Source: Bacillota bacterium
GTDB lineage: Bacteria; Bacillota; Clostridia; Peptostreptococcales; Acidaminobacteraceae
Assembly: GCA_024636005.1 (NCBI GenBank)
Contig: JAGXHV010000042.1
Coordinates: forward strand, 1-45,524
Direction of reading: 5' to 3'
Length of the DNA stretch: 45,524 nucleotides
In this document: in pieces, positions 38,077-45,513 of the stretch
How positions within the stretch are numbered: the first letter of the stretch is position 1
How the letters are laid out: every line of letters starts with the position of its first letter
Notes under the pieces: generated by a model
What the model was told of the DNA's origin: nothing
What the model saw: the letters and a program-made list of their open reading frames with translations, nothing else
Databases searched by the model: none
Position numbers and translations under genes: made by a program

Positions 38077-39265
38077 TCCAATAGAAAAAGTATTGAGCGA
38101 TATTCATGTTTTTTTTGGCAGATCGTACGATCCTATTGAACGGATTGAACTCACTCGAGCGTTTGGAAGGTATTTGGCCAGTGATATCATTAGCAAAGAA
38201 ATGATTCCTGATTTTTCAAAATCGACAGTAGACGGTTATGCTGTACATTTCTTAAGCGGTCCATGTACCCTCAAAAAAGTTGGCGAATCCTTGATGGGAA
38301 GCGGCAATATGAGTGTACTCAATAAAGGAGAATGCATTTATGTACCTACCGGAGGAATGATTCCCGAGGGTACCGAGACAATGGTCATGATTGAAGATAC
38401 AGAAGTTTTGTCTGCGGATTCGGTATATTTTAAAGAAGCATTTGTCGAAAGGGAGAACATCATAGAGCGGGGATCCGATATGTCCATCGGGCAGGTGGTG
38501 CTGACCAAGGGAATGAGAATCGGTACTCACGAGATTGGAGCATTGGCGGCACTGGGACACTTTCAGGTTGAAGTCATGAAAAGCCCTGAGGTGACTTTTA
38601 TTTCCACAGGAGATGAACTCACAGAATCAAGCGAACCGCTCAAAATGGGTCAAATTAGAGAAATCAATACATTTGCACTCGCATCCATAGCACAAAAGCA
38701 AGGGCTCGAAGTGATCATGAGAAAGATAGTAAAAGATGATTATGCTGAGATCAAGGCCACTATTGAAGATGCCATATCCAAGTCGGATTTGGTGTTTATT
38801 TCGGGTGGCAGTTCAGTTGGAGAAAAAGATTACACTTATGAATTGCTCGACGAAATTTGTGACGCGGGGGTTCTGATCAATGGAATGGCAATCAAGCCTG
38901 GCAAACCTACTATTGTTTCGAAACACGGAGACAAACCAGTTATAGGTCTTCCGGGGCATCCTGTTTCATCCATCATTGTATATGAACTTTTGGCATCAGA
39001 AATCCTAAGAAGTTGGGGGTTTAAAGTTCCAAGGCATAAAAGTGTAGAAGTGACATTATCTCAATCGGTTCGTCCCGCCAAAGGTAGAGATACCTACCAG
39101 ATGGTTCAAATAAAAGAAGTCGACAACCAATTTGTGGCTGTGCCGACTTCGGGAAAATCAGGGATGATTACATTGCTGACAGGTTCAAACGGGTATGTCA
39201 TCGTTCCGAAGGAATTAGATCAGCTAACGGAAGGATCAAAGGTTAGGGCGTATTACTTCAATTGA
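38054..39265 (+). CDS. moeA: molybdopterin molybdenumtransferase
   Basis: A 403-residue MoeA. Motifs in order are FSKSTVDGYAVHF, YVPTGGMIPEGTETMVMIED, STGDELTESSEPLKMGQIRE, FISGGSSVGEKDYTYELL, GMAIKPGKPTI and GLPGHPVSSIIVYE. It inserts molybdate into adenylylated molybdopterin. Start ATG 38054 follows GGAGGC; the upstream ATG 38024 lies inside mocA. The gene ends the island, and its last 30 bases overlap the end of the convergent helicase gene. No other Moco-synthesis genes (moaA-E, mog) are present here. Confidence 0.93.
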   Translation: MKQLMKLNPIEKVLSDIHVFFGRSYDPIERIELTRAFGRYLASDIISKEMIPDFSKSTVDGYAVHFLSGPCTLKKVGESLMGSGNMSVLNKGECIYVPTGGMIPEGTETMVMIEDTEVLSADSVYFKEAFVERENIIERGSDMSIGQVVLTKGMRIGTHEIGALAALGHFQVEVMKSPEVTFISTGDELTESSEPLKMGQIREINTFALASIAQKQGLEVIMRKIVKDDYAEIKATIEDAISKSDLVFISGGSSVGEKDYTYELLDEICDAGVLINGMAIKPGKPTIVSKHGDKPVIGLPGHPVSSIIVYELLASEILRSWGFKVPRHKSVEVTLSQSVRPAKGRDTYQMVQIKEVDNQFVAVPTSGKSGMITLLTGSNGYVIVPKELDQLTEGSKVRAYYFN

Positions 39266-40351
39266 TATTTTCATATCTATAAAGGACTCAATAGACTCTA
39301 ATCTTTTAGAGTCTTTTTCTGTTAATAAGGTAATGGCAATGCCACTTTCTCCTGCTCGACCAGTCCTACCAATTCTGTGTACGTAGTTTTCTGGATCGTC
39401 GGGTAAATTGTAATTGATGACATGCGTTATGCCTTCAACGTCAAGTCCTCTCGATGCCACATCTGTCGCAACCAAGTACTTAAGATTTCCATCTTTGAAG
39501 GACGCCATCACAAATTCACGTTTGGCTTGTGTCAAATCTCCATGTAATGCTTCGACATCATATCCGGCTGCCAGCATTTCCTCATAGAGGGAATGCGTTC
39601 CAAGACGGCTTCGACAAAAGATCATGGCTTTGTTTGGTTTTTCCCTATCGAGTATGGTCTTTAAATCTTCGAATTTTTTGCGATTGGATGTATGAATGAC
39701 CGATTGAGTGATTTTCTCAAGAGTAATCTGCTTTTTAGGGGCGATGACAACTACAGGGTCATTAAGATGTTTGTTTGAAAAACCATCGACCGTGTGGCTT
39801 AATGTCGCTGAAAAACATAATGTCTGACGATGTGTTGGAAGTGCTTCAATAATTGCATCCACGTCTTTTTTGAATCCGATATGAAACATTTGATCGGCTT
39901 CATCGACAATGAACATCGCAAGAGCATCAAAATTGATGGAACCTCTCCTGATATGATCAAGGATTCTACCAGGTGTGCCTATGACCATATGGACATTTTC
40001 TTTAAGTTTACTTAGCTGTGCGTTGACATCTTGTCCGCCGTAAGCCGCCAAAATACCGATTGGGACTACTTCTGATAGTGTTTTGGCTACGCCCGTGATT
40101 TGAAGAGCAAGTTCTCTTGTTGGCGTGATGATCAGAATCTGTATGGACTGCAGTGAAGGGTCGATGGCTTGAAATGCGGGGAGTAGGAAAGCCATGGTTT
40201 TCCCTGTGCCAGTCTGTGCTTCAGCTAAAAGATCTTTGCCTTTGTTTATTTTTGGAATAGCCAATTGTTGAATGGGAGTCGGAGTCAGAATGTTTTGGCA
40301 TTCCAGTGCATATACCAAATCTGATCGAATACCGAGTTTATAGAAATTCAA
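39236..40351 (-). CDS. DEAD-box RNA helicase
   Basis: A 371-residue helicase core with essentially no C-terminal extension. The Q motif is PTPIQQLAI, motif I is AQTGTGKT, Ia is PTRELALQ, II is VDEADQM, III is SAT, V includes VATDVASRGLD, and VI is HRIGRTGR. It unwinds short RNA duplexes, with likely roles in ribosome assembly or mRNA decay. The start codon is a TTG at 40351, with GAGGT seven bases upstream. A promoter with TTGCAA and TATAAT 17 bases apart lies just upstream and overlaps the dppA promoter. Confidence 0.93.
   Translation of the reverse strand: MNFYKLGIRSDLVYALECQNILTPTPIQQLAIPKINKGKDLLAEAQTGTGKTMAFLLPAFQAIDPSLQSIQILIITPTRELALQITGVAKTLSEVVPIGILAAYGGQDVNAQLSKLKENVHMVIGTPGRILDHIRRGSINFDALAMFIVDEADQMFHIGFKKDVDAIIEALPTHRQTLCFSATLSHTVDGFSNKHLNDPVVVIAPKKQITLEKITQSVIHTSNRKKFEDLKTILDREKPNKAMIFCRSRLGTHSLYEEMLAAGYDVEALHGDLTQAKREFVMASFKDGNLKYLVATDVASRGLDVEGITHVINYNLPDDPENYVHRIGRTGRAGESGIAITLLTEKDSKRLESIESFIDMKISIEVIRPNL
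39293..39318 (+). terminator. intrinsic terminator of moeA located inside the helicase coding sequence
   Basis: AGACTCTAA and TTAGAGTCT are perfect nine-base arms around TCT, followed by TTTTCT on the plus strand. It stands 28 bases after the moeA stop and within the final codons of the opposite-strand helicase gene. Confidence 0.75.
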
Positions 40352-40391
40352 AAGGAATACCTCATTTCTTTAGTGGGTGTCATAACGTATA

Positions 40392-40420
40392 ATTATAGCG
40401 TATTGGCATGGGAATTGCAA
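40392..40420 (-). promoter_or_regulatory. sigma-A-type promoter of the DEAD-box gene
   Basis: On the minus strand TTGCAA (40420-40415) and TATAAT (40397-40392) are separated by exactly 17 bases. Transcription would begin near 40385, about 35 bases before the TTG start. Confidence 0.65.
40403..40420 (+). promoter_or_regulatory. candidate sigma-54 promoter of dppA
   Basis: TTGGCATGGGAATTGCAA matches the -24/-12 consensus (TTGGCACGN4TTGCW) with one difference. GG (40405-40406) and GC (40417-40418) are exactly ten bases apart. A start near 40430 would give a leader of about 29 bases with GGGAGG before the gene. Confidence 0.6.
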
Positions 40421-40458
40421 CGATGTTGATAGAGGCAAAATAACATTGGGAGGTTAAG

Positions 40459-41256
40459 ATGAAAGTTTTTATTAGCGCAGATATGGAGGGTGTTACAGGA
40501 ACAACTTTGTGGGAGGAATGTGATCGGAACAGTCCGTTTTATGCAAGGTTTGCTCAGCAAATGACGAAAGAAGTCGTTGCGGCTTGTAAAGGTGCATTTG
40601 CTGCTGGAGCAACAGAAGTGGTGGTCAAAGATTCACATGCATCAGGTACAAATATTGATATCACACAGTTGCCACCTGGAACAAAATTGATCAGAAATTG
40701 GAGTGGTCACCCTTATTCCATGGTGGAAGGGATAGATTCCAGCTTTGATGCCGCCATGTTCATCGGATATCATGCTGCGGCAGGAAGACCAGGAAACCCT
40801 CTGTCACATACGATGTCTTCTGTACCTTATAGGATGAAAATCAATGGCGAGTGGGCAAGTGAATTTCTGATCTATAGCTATGCGGCAGCATATGAAGGTG
40901 TACCGACAGTATTTCTGTCAGGCGATGCAATGCTATGCGAAGATTCTCACGCCATTCATCCACTACTTAAGACGGTTGTTGTAAAAGATGGTAAAGGTGG
41001 TTTGACCATCAATGAATCACCAATTTCAACACTCGAGTGGATAGAAAAAGGAGCTACTGAAGCTCTAAAGCAAAATTTGAATAATGCTAAAATCACTTTA
41101 CCTGAACATTTTGAAGTGGAATTGATGTTCAGAGAACATAAGGTCATGAGACGAAAATCTTACTATCCAGGTATGGAAATCGTAGATGATCTAACGCTTC
41201 GGTTTGAAGCGGATGATTATTTTGAAGTTCTTAGAATGATATCTTTTGTATTATAA
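40459..41256 (+). CDS. dppA: M55-family D-aminopeptidase DppA
   Basis: A 265-residue DppA homologue. Zinc ligands are visible at positions matching the Bacillus enzyme: D8 and E10 in ISADMEGVTG, H60 in VKDSHASG, H105 in GYHAAAG, and a glutamate near 131-135 in EWASEF. DppA releases N-terminal D-amino acids such as D-Ala from dipeptides and is a self-compartmentalised decamer. It probably recycles D-amino-acid peptides from cell walls. It is divergent from the helicase and convergent with the dipeptidase gene. The only good promoter upstream on this strand is of sigma-54 type. Confidence 0.92.
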   Translation: MKVFISADMEGVTGTTLWEECDRNSPFYARFAQQMTKEVVAACKGAFAAGATEVVVKDSHASGTNIDITQLPPGTKLIRNWSGHPYSMVEGIDSSFDAAMFIGYHAAAGRPGNPLSHTMSSVPYRMKINGEWASEFLIYSYAAAYEGVPTVFLSGDAMLCEDSHAIHPLLKTVVVKDGKGGLTINESPISTLEWIEKGATEALKQNLNNAKITLPEHFEVELMFREHKVMRRKSYYPGMEIVDDLTLRFEADDYFEVLRMISFVL

Positions 41257-41259
41257 ACA

Positions 41260-41296
41260 AAATCCCGATTGCTGAAATTGCAGTCGGGATTTTATA
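41260..41296. terminator. bidirectional terminator between dppA and the M19 dipeptidase gene
   Basis: AAATCCCGATTGC and GCAGTCGGGATTT pair over 13 bases with one G-U and a seven-base loop. A/T runs flank both sides, which suits two convergent genes. Confidence 0.8.
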
Positions 41297-41304
41297 TTTC
41301 GTTG

Positions 41305-42546
41305 TCATATGTTTTCGATGATTTGAGTTGTTCGATTCACGTCACCAGATTTGGACGTGTACTCGAAAGTGGCCACATAAAATCGTTCAATAAGCGTCTC
41401 ATCAATCAAACTGTATAGTTGATTGGAGAGGGAATCAAGCCAAGCATCATGCCGGATGCCATTCAACCAAAAATAGGAACCAATGCTATAGTCCAAATCT
41501 ACGGGTTCTGTTTCAAAGCGATTAATGTTGCCACGAATCAAAGTTATTGAACCTGTTTTTGAATTGGGAGGAGAAAAACTCATTTCATCAAGCAACCTTA
41601 GGGAGTTGAGTCCCATAATTTTATCTATTGTGCCCTCTGAAAAACCTCTATCCTTCATAGTCTTTGCGACAAGCTGCATGTGGGAAATATCTGGTATGTC
41701 AACTGGCATTGTAGCGCCATCGAAGTCGGACCCTAGACCGACATGATCTTCGCCGATCACATTGATGATGTGTTCAATGTGGTCGACGAGAACGTCAACA
41801 CCAGAATTGACATCACCGATGAAATAACGACAGAATACAACATGCACAACACCGCCTGAGTCAGCAATGGCTTTGAGTTGACTGTCTTTGAGATTTCTGA
41901 CATGAGGCTTGATCGAATAAGCACCTGAATGTGTCGCTATCAATGGTTTATTTGTTGTTTGGATTGTGGATTCAAAAGTTTCCTCATCCATGTGAGAAAC
42001 ATCGACTAGAATCCCTAATTCATTCATGGCTTTGACAACTTCTTTGCCAAGTTTTGTCAATCCACCAGAAGTAGGGGTACCCAGTGCGGTGATTTTTTTT
42101 GTACCTTCTCCTAATGTGTTGGAGTGGTCCCAAACCAACGTGATGATTCTAACACCAAGATCGTGGTATTGTCTTAGCAAACCCATGGCATTTTCTTCGT
42201 TAAGTGAATAGGCACCTTCGATGGTCTGGACGGCCACAAATTTATGCCTGTCTATGGATTTGATGATCCCTTGATGGGTGTAGCCTTTTTCCATTCTGAC
42301 CGAATTGAGTTCAACGGTTTTATCAAGAGCTTGCATCATAGAGAGCAGCCGACTGTTGTTGCGATCGGGATTGCCCATATCATCCGTAAAAGCTGCGAAG
42401 AAAGCGACATTGACATGTCCGGTGACTAGTTTTTCAAGGTCGATATTAAAGTCCGTTACCAGCCCAATATCAGCTGAAAAAGACCAATCGTCTTGATTGA
42501 TGATTTTCATCAGGGTATCGTTATGTGCATCAACAGTCAATCTCAT
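41305..42546 (-). CDS. M19-family (renal-type) membrane dipeptidase
   Basis: A 413-residue metallo-dipeptidase. The first metal motif is VDAHNDTL (H8, D10). The bridging glutamate is in VQTIEGAYSL. Further ligands lie in ATHSGAYS and the metal-site end is GSDFDGAT. The family cleaves dipeptides, often with a D-residue at the C-terminus. The catalytic domain ends near residue 325, and about 85 further residues (FSPPNSKTG onward) are an extension of unknown role. There is no signal peptide, so it acts in the cytosol. It overlaps the C39 peptidase gene by 17 bases and is last in the opp operon. Confidence 0.9.
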   Translation of the reverse strand: MRLTVDAHNDTLMKIINQDDWSFSADIGLVTDFNIDLEKLVTGHVNVAFFAAFTDDMGNPDRNNSRLLSMMQALDKTVELNSVRMEKGYTHQGIIKSIDRHKFVAVQTIEGAYSLNEENAMGLLRQYHDLGVRIITLVWDHSNTLGEGTKKITALGTPTSGGLTKLGKEVVKAMNELGILVDVSHMDEETFESTIQTTNKPLIATHSGAYSIKPHVRNLKDSQLKAIADSGGVVHVVFCRYFIGDVNSGVDVLVDHIEHIINVIGEDHVGLGSDFDGATMPVDIPDISHMQLVAKTMKDRGFSEGTIDKIMGLNSLRLLDEMSFSPPNSKTGSITLIRGNINRFETEPVDLDYSIGSYFWLNGIRHDAWLDSLSNQLYSLIDETLIERFYVATFEYTSKSGDVNRTTQIIENI

Positions 42547-43504
42547 GAGATGGCCTTTCGATTACATAAATAAGGTGCTTCCAAGCTTTTAGAAATTGAG
42601 TGTATTTGTATTTTCTTGAAATGTTTTCAATAGACTTTGTGGCAGGGTCATTGACACATACCATTACGCCGGAATCACTTTGTTCTACTCCCGTCACAAC
42701 TATAAGATGACCGCTTGGATAAGCTTGTGATGAGCCTTCCAATTCACTGACGTCTTTTGTTTTTATGGATGCGATGACTGGAGTTCCACGTCTCAAAAGT
42801 TCTAAAACGCAATCAAAACTGTCACAATACTGTACAGATGCTTTAAAGCCACATTCCCCCGCATAGGCGACATTGTAAGACCAATTCCCATAAATTGAAG
42901 TACCGTTATCTATGGTGCCTTTTGCGACTTGTTCAGTGGGGAGGTTAAGCCCATGGAAAGCAAACACCATCGAGAGGGATGTGGGACTACATATGATGTT
43001 TCCGATTTCTTCTACAATAAGTTGAGAGCGGGTGGGAACGTCAAGCAATATATCTTCGGAATCCACAATGCATTCAAATCGGTTTTCTGGCAGACTGAAT
43101 GTAGCATAGACTGATTTGACTGAAGGAGACTGGATCTCAACATTTTTTCTGGTGAGTGCCAATTTCACTTGTACTGCTTCTCCATGTCCAGAATGTACTA
43201 CCAGTTCATCGATGTCCAAACGTGCAATATTGTCCTTTTGTCCAGAAAAGCTCCCAGTATTGTTGCCATCGGTTGTCCATTTGCCATAACTGAACCACAT
43301 GCTCCAGTTTTGTGAAGTACGAACTCTGATCCACACTTCAATATTGGTGTTTTCGTAAGTTGTGGTATTCCATGAGACTACCAATCGTTCAAATGGTCCT
43401 ACTTCCTTGACTTCAGACACCCATTCTGCGGTTAGGCTGTCATTTTCAAGGTGGAAAGGGCGATTGGATAATTTGGGTTCCCATATAAGCAAATTGTTTT
43501 GCAT
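42530..43504 (-). CDS. C39-like cysteine peptidase with N-terminal beta-sandwich region
   Basis: A 324-residue protein. The C-terminal half is a papain-fold C39_2-type peptidase: the catalytic cysteine is in NIICSPTSLSMVF (about 177-189), the histidine in YPSGHLIVVTG and the third residue in CVNDPAT. The usual CGP motif is CSP. The first 150 residues are rich in aromatic and beta-forming residues (VSWNTTTYENTNIEVWIRV) and look like a beta-sandwich ligand-binding domain. No signal peptide or membrane segment is seen, so it appears cytosolic. It is encoded after oppF with three bases between, which suggests it processes imported peptides or glycopeptides. Its specificity is unknown. Confidence 0.78.
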   Translation of the reverse strand: MQNNLLIWEPKLSNRPFHLENDSLTAEWVSEVKEVGPFERLVVSWNTTTYENTNIEVWIRVRTSQNWSMWFSYGKWTTDGNNTGSFSGQKDNIARLDIDELVVHSGHGEAVQVKLALTRKNVEIQSPSVKSVYATFSLPENRFECIVDSEDILLDVPTRSQLIVEEIGNIICSPTSLSMVFAFHGLNLPTEQVAKGTIDNGTSIYGNWSYNVAYAGECGFKASVQYCDSFDCVLELLRRGTPVIASIKTKDVSELEGSSQAYPSGHLIVVTGVEQSDSGVMVCVNDPATKSIENISRKYKYTQFLKAWKHLIYVIERPSHEIDC

Positions 43505-43507
43505 AGT

Positions 43508-44458
43508 CTATTCCCCCTTGATGTTGGATTCCAACATAGTCTTGTATACATCTACCTCAGGTTGGTTAGCGAGTATGAAATGACCTTCTTTAATTTCGAC
43601 CCATTTGGGTGCTTCGAGATGGTACTGGTGCTGCTTGGGATCGTAAAAAATGACCTTTCTACTCTTCTCGTAATTGGGATTGGGCATGGGGATCGCCGAT
43701 AATAGACTCTTCGTATAAGGATGTAAAGGATTGTTGTAGAGTTCTTCTGTTTCGGCGAGTTCCACTAGACGTCCTTTATGAATGACGCCTACTCGGTCTG
43801 TGATGAAGCGCACAATGGACAAGTCATGGGCAATGAAAAGATAAGTTAAACCCAGATCCTTCTTCAATCGGTTCATCAGATTGAGCACTTGAGCTCTAAT
43901 GGAGACATCCAGTGCAGAGATCGGCTCATCGGCAATTATGAATTTTGGTTGCATGACCAGTGAACGTGCGATGCCGATACGCTGGCGCTGCCCACCTGAA
44001 AATTCATGAGGAAACCTACTGGAGAATTCAGGTAGAAGTCCGACTTCAAGCAATGCATCATCAACGATTTTCTTGCGTTCGGCGTCATTGGCATAATTTC
44101 TTAGATTATATAAACCTTCAGAGATAATGTAATCCACTTTAGCACGCTCATTGAGTGAAGACATGGGATCTTGAAATATCATCTGTATGTCTTGGACAAC
44201 TTTTTTGTCTTTCTTTCTGTCAATCTTTCCACTGATGCGCTCGCCTTCAAATGTGACTTCTCCTGAAGTGATTGCATTGATCCGGATGATTGCTCTGCCG
44301 ATGGTTGTTTTGCCTGATCCTGATTCACCAACCAGACCGAATGTCTCACCTTCATAGATATCGAAGCTGACATCGTCTACAGCTGTAAAAGCCTTTTTCC
44401 TACTACCGAAAACGACACTTATATTCTTAACTTCGAGAAGTTTTTTTCTTTCACTCAT
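43508..44458 (-). CDS. oppF: oligopeptide ABC transporter ATP-binding protein OppF
   Basis: A 316-residue peptide-transporter ATPase. Walker A is GESGSGKTT, the signature is [15 protein letters not shown], Walker B is [12 protein letters not shown], and the C-terminal oligopeptide extension contains [18 protein letters not shown] longer reading begins at ATG 44473. The ATG at 44458 has GGGGG eight bases upstream and overlaps the oppD stop (ATGA), so it is preferred. It pairs with OppD. The permease and binding-protein genes are not in the window and probably lie further upstream past the right edge. Confidence 0.93.
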
Positions 44459-45513
44459 TCGCTTGACCCCCATTCATTTTTGAGTCTAATGACATTTTCT
44501 GAAACCGGCACTTTAGGTGCACGGGGGTCGAGTAGCCACGTTTTGGCTTTATGTGTCGGTGAAACCTGTACCATAGGCGGTTCATAAAGGAAATCCACTT
44601 TTAAAGCATTTGGATTTCTAGGTGCAAAAGCATCGCCCACGATAGTCTTAAATAAGTTTGGAGGCGTCCCTTTTATGGCACTAAGATCTTCTCCTTTAAC
44701 ACCAAGTTGAGGCAACGAGCTTAAAAGTGCATTGGTATAGGGGTGTATTGGTTCATAGAAAATCTCATCAGCTGTTCCCACTTCAACGATTTCACCTGCA
44801 TACATGACGGCGACTCTGTCTGCAACGTGGGCGACAACACCTAGGTCGTGAGTGATGTAAACGATTGTAAGCTCATATACGCGTTGAAGTTTTTCAAGCA
44901 GTTCTATGATTTGAGCTTGTATGGTCACATCAAGTGCAGTGGTCGGTTCGTCACAAATGAGAATTTCCGGTCTGCAAGCTACTGCTATAGCAATAACAAT
45001 TCTTTGTCTCATGCCTCCTGAAAATTCGTGTGGGTATTGTTTATATCTGTTTTCGGGATTGTCGATGCCCACACTGGTCAACAGTTCATACGTGGCAGTT
45101 CTCGCATCGGTTTTATTCAAATATTTCTGATGCAGTTCCAATGTTTCCTGTAATTGCTTCCCTATAGTTTTGAGAGGATTGAGAGAGGTCATTGGATCTT
45201 GAAAGACCATTGCAATCTCTTTTCCTCTGATTTTCAGCCAATCTTTTTCAACTTTATATGTTGACATGTTGTTCCCTTTATAAATGATTTCACCTGAATC
45301 AATCCAACCATTCGCATCTAAAAGGCCCATACAGGATTTGGTGAGCACAGATTTTCCAGATCCGGATTCACCTACAATCGCCAAGCTTTCTCCCTTGAAA
45401 ATTTCCAAGGAGGCACTTCTTATGGCGGTCAATGTTTTTCCTCTCAAATTGAATTTGATGACGAGGTCTTTAAGTTCGAGTATGGGTTTTAGAGTTCTGT
45501 CTATAGTATTCAT
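44455..45513 (-). CDS. oppD: oligopeptide ABC transporter ATP-binding protein OppD
   Basis: A 352-residue ATPase. Walker A is GESGSGKSV, the signature is [16 protein letters not shown], Walker B is [12 protein letters not shown], and the peptide-transporter tail has [16 protein letters not shown]. The C-terminal end (about 300-352, with [20 protein letters not shown]) follows the Opp type but lacks the clear cysteine motif of iron-sulfur-bearing relatives. The ATG at 45513 follows AGGAGG. It is the first visible gene of the minus-strand opp-peptidase operon, which continues beyond the window. Confidence 0.93.

Follow-up and report, generated by a model that had tools for sequence, protein, structure and literature searches.

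The 107-bp gap between the divergently transcribed genes of a DEAD-box RNA helicase and an M55 D-aminopeptidase holds two predicted promoters that stand back to back and have the hexamer TTGCAA in common, as the -12 element of a sigma-54 promoter on one strand and as the -35 element of a sigma-70-type promoter on the other. Probably, these overlapping promoters can be occupied by one polymerase at a time, and the M55 gene is an arm of a murein-peptide regulon controlled by sigma-54 and an enhancer-binding protein (EBP). In this model, the sigma-54 RNA polymerase would bind positions 40403-40420 on the plus strand and wait there as a closed complex until fired by an EBP encoded approximately 8 kb downstream, yielding the D-aminopeptidase, and the housekeeping polymerase would take the TTGCAA and TATAAT hexamers of the minus strand and produce the helicase; as the same six base pairs would serve as both the -12 and the -35 element, and the footprints coincide, only a single polymerase could be accommodated. 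All positions, unless a contig is named, are those of the window, that is, the whole 45,524-nt stretch of DNA that was analysed.

Predicted promoters in the helicase-M55 intergenic region

The helicase gene (39236-40351, minus strand; 371 aa, TTG start) has the Pfam domains DEAD (161.5 bits) and Helicase_C (113.8 bits); its product is similar to CshA, DbpA and RhlE, yet it scores below the NCBIfam equivalog cut-offs of those families. Its Shine-Dalgarno sequence, GAGGT (40359-40363, minus strand), lies 7 nt ahead of the start codon. The M55 gene (40459-41256, plus strand), preceded by the Shine-Dalgarno sequence GGGAGG at 40448-40453 on the same strand, encodes a DppA-like protein of 265 aa (Peptidase_M55, 289 bits) that has D8, E10 and H60. 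Its assignment as a DppA equivalog (NF058634) was rejected, the score being 149.7 bits against the curated NCBIfam cut-off of 430 bits. Positions 104, 115 and 133 of the B. subtilis enzyme do not fall on the expected residues in this protein, perhaps owing to a numbering offset.

The sigma-54 promoter predicted for the M55 gene, TTGGCATGGGAATTGCAA (40403-40420, plus strand), has the -24 GG at 40405-40406 and the -12 GC at 40417-40418, separated by ten nucleotides and set in the TGGCA and TTGC context, with a predicted transcription start near 40430. It is mismatched at one position with the Clostridiales sigma-54 consensus TTGGCATNNNNNTTGCT (Nie et al. 2019, PMC6615313), and it is the only occurrence of TGGCA-N6-TTGC on either strand of the window. 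The genome has one intact rpoN (PF04552, E 2.4e-62), which reads through with the RpoN box SRRTVAKYRDEM, and 11 strong EBPs. A first-pass annotation had placed a sigma-54 element for the M55 gene at these positions and had named the lack of rpoN as an observation that would speak against it; the gene is present, and this half of the arrangement is well supported by the sequence.

A pattern search of the whole 2.54-Mb genome for TGGCAY-N5-TTGCW yielded 24 sites, approximately 15 of which, including the M55 site, are followed at a distance of 25-69 nt by a start codon that has a Shine-Dalgarno sequence, the remaining ones appearing to be intragenic. Motif spacing as a genome-wide test was discarded, as the reversed-pattern control was unfair, its CpG-containing words being rare. 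Elsewhere in the genome, two perfect sigma-54 motifs were observed in tandem, 111 bp apart, before one gene of 392 aa (locus L183, contig C134, positions 1501 and 1612, minus strand). The window also contains a purine/allantoin-type cluster (10448-39265) with two molybdenum hydroxylases (MoCoBD domains), an amidase, a CoA-transferase III, MoeA, an AllG-like oxamate carbamoyltransferase subunit and an XdhC-like protein; no strict sigma-54 site was found inside this cluster.

On the minus strand, TTGCAA (40415-40420), followed after a 17-nt spacer by TATAAT (40392-40397), forms the candidate promoter of the helicase gene, with a predicted start near 40385. It scores 10/12, with six of six positions matched in the -10 and four of six in the -35, without an extended -10. 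The spacing of the hexamers, which are kept in the congeners, is within the 16-18 nt of a sigma-70-type promoter. The first-pass annotation had read this strand in the same way, with the same six base pairs serving as the sigma-54 -12 and the sigma-70 -35; the coordinates of both elements agree with that, and a sigma-70-type helicase promoter is likely. By its coordinates, the sigma-54 motif falls inside the sigma-70 footprint, as in the class I/II overlapping promoters of Schaefer et al. (2015, PMC4551910).

The M55 neighbourhood and the enhancer-binding protein

The right end of the window overlaps contig C93 over exactly 141 bp, hence the two contigs adjoin; in two congeners (G001, G002) the region lies on one contig and is collinear. 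The divergent helicase and M55 genes are followed by the M19-C39-AbcF-AbcD-PermC-PermB-SBP operon, which reads toward M55, then by the EBP gene and, divergent from it, by the S66-Bla2-Alr-LysA-M20 operon. Between the M55 gene and the convergent oligopeptide operon there is a terminator (41259-41293, plus strand) with a 14-pair stem and a T tail, also kept in G002. The part of this operon inside the window (41305-45513, minus strand) encodes an M19 dipeptidase, a C39-like peptidase and two oligopeptide ABC ATPases, and its promoter, two permeases and oligopeptide-binding protein (SBP) lie past the window, on C93. In the other operon, the gene of the S66 LD-carboxypeptidase is followed by those of a beta-lactamase-fold enzyme, alanine racemase, DAP decarboxylase and an M20 peptidase. 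One sigma-54 site, TTGGCACGAGAATTGCA, lies ahead of the binding-protein operon and another, TTGGCATATTTATTGCA, ahead of the S66 operon, and these two further promoters flank the EBP gene (C93 4194-6050, corresponding to 49577-51433 on the window scale), whose product has a PAS-like N-terminus and GAFTGA.

The EBP gene is linked to genes of the same kind in other genera: to the transporter and S66 in G019 and G031, to S66, the racemase and DAP decarboxylase in G017, and to DAP decarboxylase, the racemase and M55 in G030, G057 and G018. A congener without M55 (G003) is also without this EBP. The M55 promoter is most likely part of a regulon for the catabolism of murein peptides, and the other genes of this regulon extend over 41305-45513 of the window and 140-11615 of C93 (locus L192). 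Judging by the protein families, the enzyme set would fit peptide uptake, removal of D-Ala, its racemisation and the conversion of DAP to lysine. The D-peptide recycling of the first-pass annotation is better described as such a D-Ala/DAP catabolic regulon, with its peptidase assigned to M55 by Pfam and not as a DppA equivalog. No sigma-54 site that looks orthologous was found before M55 in other genera. Neither a dyad search nor a three-way word comparison revealed an EBP-binding site (UAS) common to the three promoters above the level of shuffles; the dyad TCCGGA, located before the oligopeptide operon, was rejected as an EBP site, as it looks like the terminator of the EBP gene.

The predicted promoter of the EBP gene itself makes a second overlap. 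This minus-strand promoter, ATGCCA-17/18-TGTTATAAT (10/12, with an extended -10; C93 6050-6115, locus L192, with the equivalents L189 and L190), is present in all three genomes, a one-base indel making the spacer 17 or 18 nt depending on the species. ATGCCA is the sigma-54 -24 element read backwards, and the EBP -35 overlaps the -24 of the divergent S66 promoter, back to back. Among the canonical sigma-54 sites of this genome, only those of M55/helicase and S66/EBP are situated between divergent genes a short distance apart, and at both of them a 10/12 promoter on the opposite strand has a sigma-54 hexamer as its -35. Each sigma-54 hexamer inherently scores 4/6 as a -35, and only the position of TATAAT is non-trivial; given the space available, the chance per site was estimated by hand at approximately 1 in 9. 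Reuse of the hexamer at two divergent sites out of two is thus suggestive, not compelling.

Conservation and competing readings

In an alignment of the region from this genome (G000) and the congeners G001 and G002, no invariant run is longer than that at 40392-40420 (29 nt), which extends exactly from the minus-strand -10 on the left to the final base of the shared hexamer on the right; it includes the sigma-54 site, invariant in all three genomes. Between G000 and G002, identity at third codon positions is just 57-60% in the genes on either side, and 8 changes were counted over 27 columns of the leader (40421-40446). The pairing of M55 with the helicase is limited to the three congeners, and elsewhere M55 has other neighbours, without such a promoter.

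The alternative that survives best, to which we would give a little less than an even chance, is that both promoters are real and their overlap is a mere by-product of packing divergent promoters into 107 bp, with the helicase expressed at an approximately constant level and no switch. Our preferred reading claims exclusion and not purpose, hence the two overlap and the confidences attached to the readings do not sum to one. When the canonical sigma-54 sites of the genome are compared, roughly half of them contain TTGCAA, and the palindrome alone is no sign of dual use, because the sigma-54 preference by itself explains it. Across the order, a composite of ATTATA with a sigma-54 site was found in 14 of 395 genomes, three of these being orthologues, and the control, with this hexamer in opposite orientation and hence of the same composition, in 12 of 390 genomes; the composite is not enriched over the control and makes no general rule. 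The intergenic space is tight on either side, and outside the genus the helicase is unlinked to M55 and stands apart from the regulon, so that, together with the sigma-54 preference for the palindrome, these observations also argue against a purposeful switch. Less easily accommodated by a mere by-product are the exact coincidence of the invariant run with the two outermost elements, the hexamer reuse at both sigma-54 promoters between close divergent genes, and the repression of overlapping sigma-70 promoters by the sigma-54 holoenzyme (PMC4551910). As a separate observation, an independent back-to-back overlap was seen in G027 (locus L231, near 1501), where an EBP gene with a promoter of sigma-70 type diverges from an ornithine cyclodeaminase-like gene with a sigma-54 promoter.

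It is quite improbable that the minus-strand hexamers are a chance match in AT-rich DNA and that transcription of the helicase starts elsewhere or depends on another sigma factor. The 4/6 match of the -35 and the missing extended -10 would fit this, as would the abundance of sigma-70-like sites in the region (6 found, with 8.2 expected from shuffles), but the match is the best on the minus strand within 39.2-42.6 kb, its perfect -10 is at 17 nt and well placed before the helicase Shine-Dalgarno sequence, it is invariant in three genomes despite a change of the adjacent base, and no other minus-strand match with at least 5/6 in the -10 was found elsewhere in the intergenic DNA. It is hardly credible that the housekeeping polymerase uses the TATAAT at 40388 on the plus strand, a start that the first-pass annotation had named as evidence against its own reading, to transcribe M55 and leaves the sigma-54 motif unused: this TATAAT is present in two of the three genomes, but no acceptable -35 was found upstream, a substitution at 40391 in G002 turns it into TATTAT and spares the minus-strand TATAAT, the sigma-54 site is retained, and sister sites stand ahead of the other regulon operons.

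Predicted mutual exclusion and comparison with known systems

A closed sigma-54 complex covers roughly -34 to -5. In the preferred reading of two overlapping promoters, mutual exclusion would be expected, because the sigma-70 footprint would enclose the whole of this complex and TTGCAA has to be read by both sigma factors. Exclusion of one polymerase by the other, proposed by the first-pass annotation, thus gains support in a steric form from the geometry of the common bases and from the E. coli precedents considered below. From the two promoter elements and their conservation, rpoN, the EBP and the two sister sigma-54 promoters we infer the use of both promoters, the action of this EBP on the M55 promoter, exclusion in the cell and the nature of the substrate. 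A physiological switch between the helicase and D-peptide use, as that annotation had it, may reasonably be conjectured, and a regulatory link from peptide supply to the RNA helicase is possible, although in other genera the helicase stands apart from the regulon and the search for an EBP-binding site found none. A broader model, which we consider unlikely, is that in this genus a poised, inactive sigma-54 polymerase keeps both its activator and an RNA helicase repressed as long as cell-wall peptides are absent, both divergent sigma-54 promoters doubling as -35 elements (with the -12 for the helicase and the -24 for the EBP), and peptide supply being linked to RNA turnover.

In the dmpR/Po system of Pseudomonas, the partner of the sigma-54 promoter is the EBP gene. 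The sigma-54 and sigma-70 promoters are back to back there too, and the sigma-54 polymerase has an effect on the sigma-70 promoter that diverges from its own (Johansson et al. 2008, cited in PMC3844500); however, going by the title of that work, they are non-overlapping, whereas here the hexamers are in common and the partner is a helicase. Competition between the sigma-54 and sigma-70 polymerases for binding to overlapping promoters was measured in vitro at E. coli argT, chaC, mdfA and patA (Schaefer et al. 2015, PMC4551910), where the sigma-54 site is likewise inside the sigma-70 promoter footprint; the same authors note that few such sigma-54 cases are documented. The present case differs in coming from a clostridium and being predicted from sequence, in that its sigma-54 site is itself a consensus promoter of a divergent gene, and in having an EBP nearby. 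In the Desulfovibrio orp cluster (PMC3897727), an EBP gene is similarly transcribed from a sigma-70 promoter next to divergent sigma-54 operons, and the overlap produces negative feedback, but in that cluster the sigma-70 promoter shares bases with the EBP-binding site and not with the -12/-24 core.

As for the regulon, the E. coli ddpXABCDF operon similarly places a D-peptide hydrolase, the D-Ala-D-Ala dipeptidase DdpX, and a peptide ABC transporter under sigma-54, but it depends on NtrC nitrogen control, with no local EBP, and is without the LD-carboxypeptidase, racemase and DAP decarboxylase (PMC8743547). The Clostridiales sigma-54 regulons (Nie et al. 2019, PMC6615313) have the same consensus and, as here, local EBPs that drive operons of amino-acid and peptide catabolism. 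A target set of M55, S66, alanine racemase and DAP decarboxylase is named for none of the 39 EBP groups in Table 1 of that paper, and the regulon appears to be missing from the catalogue given in that table.

The arrangement in this uncultured clostridium is a clear new example of an already known kind. If the preferred reading is true, it would join the few documented contests of sigma-54 and sigma-70 for the same bases as a conserved Gram-positive case, with a clean sharing of one hexamer that is open to test by point mutations, and the regulon would suggest that sigma-54 controls the use of cell-wall peptides as food in such anaerobes.
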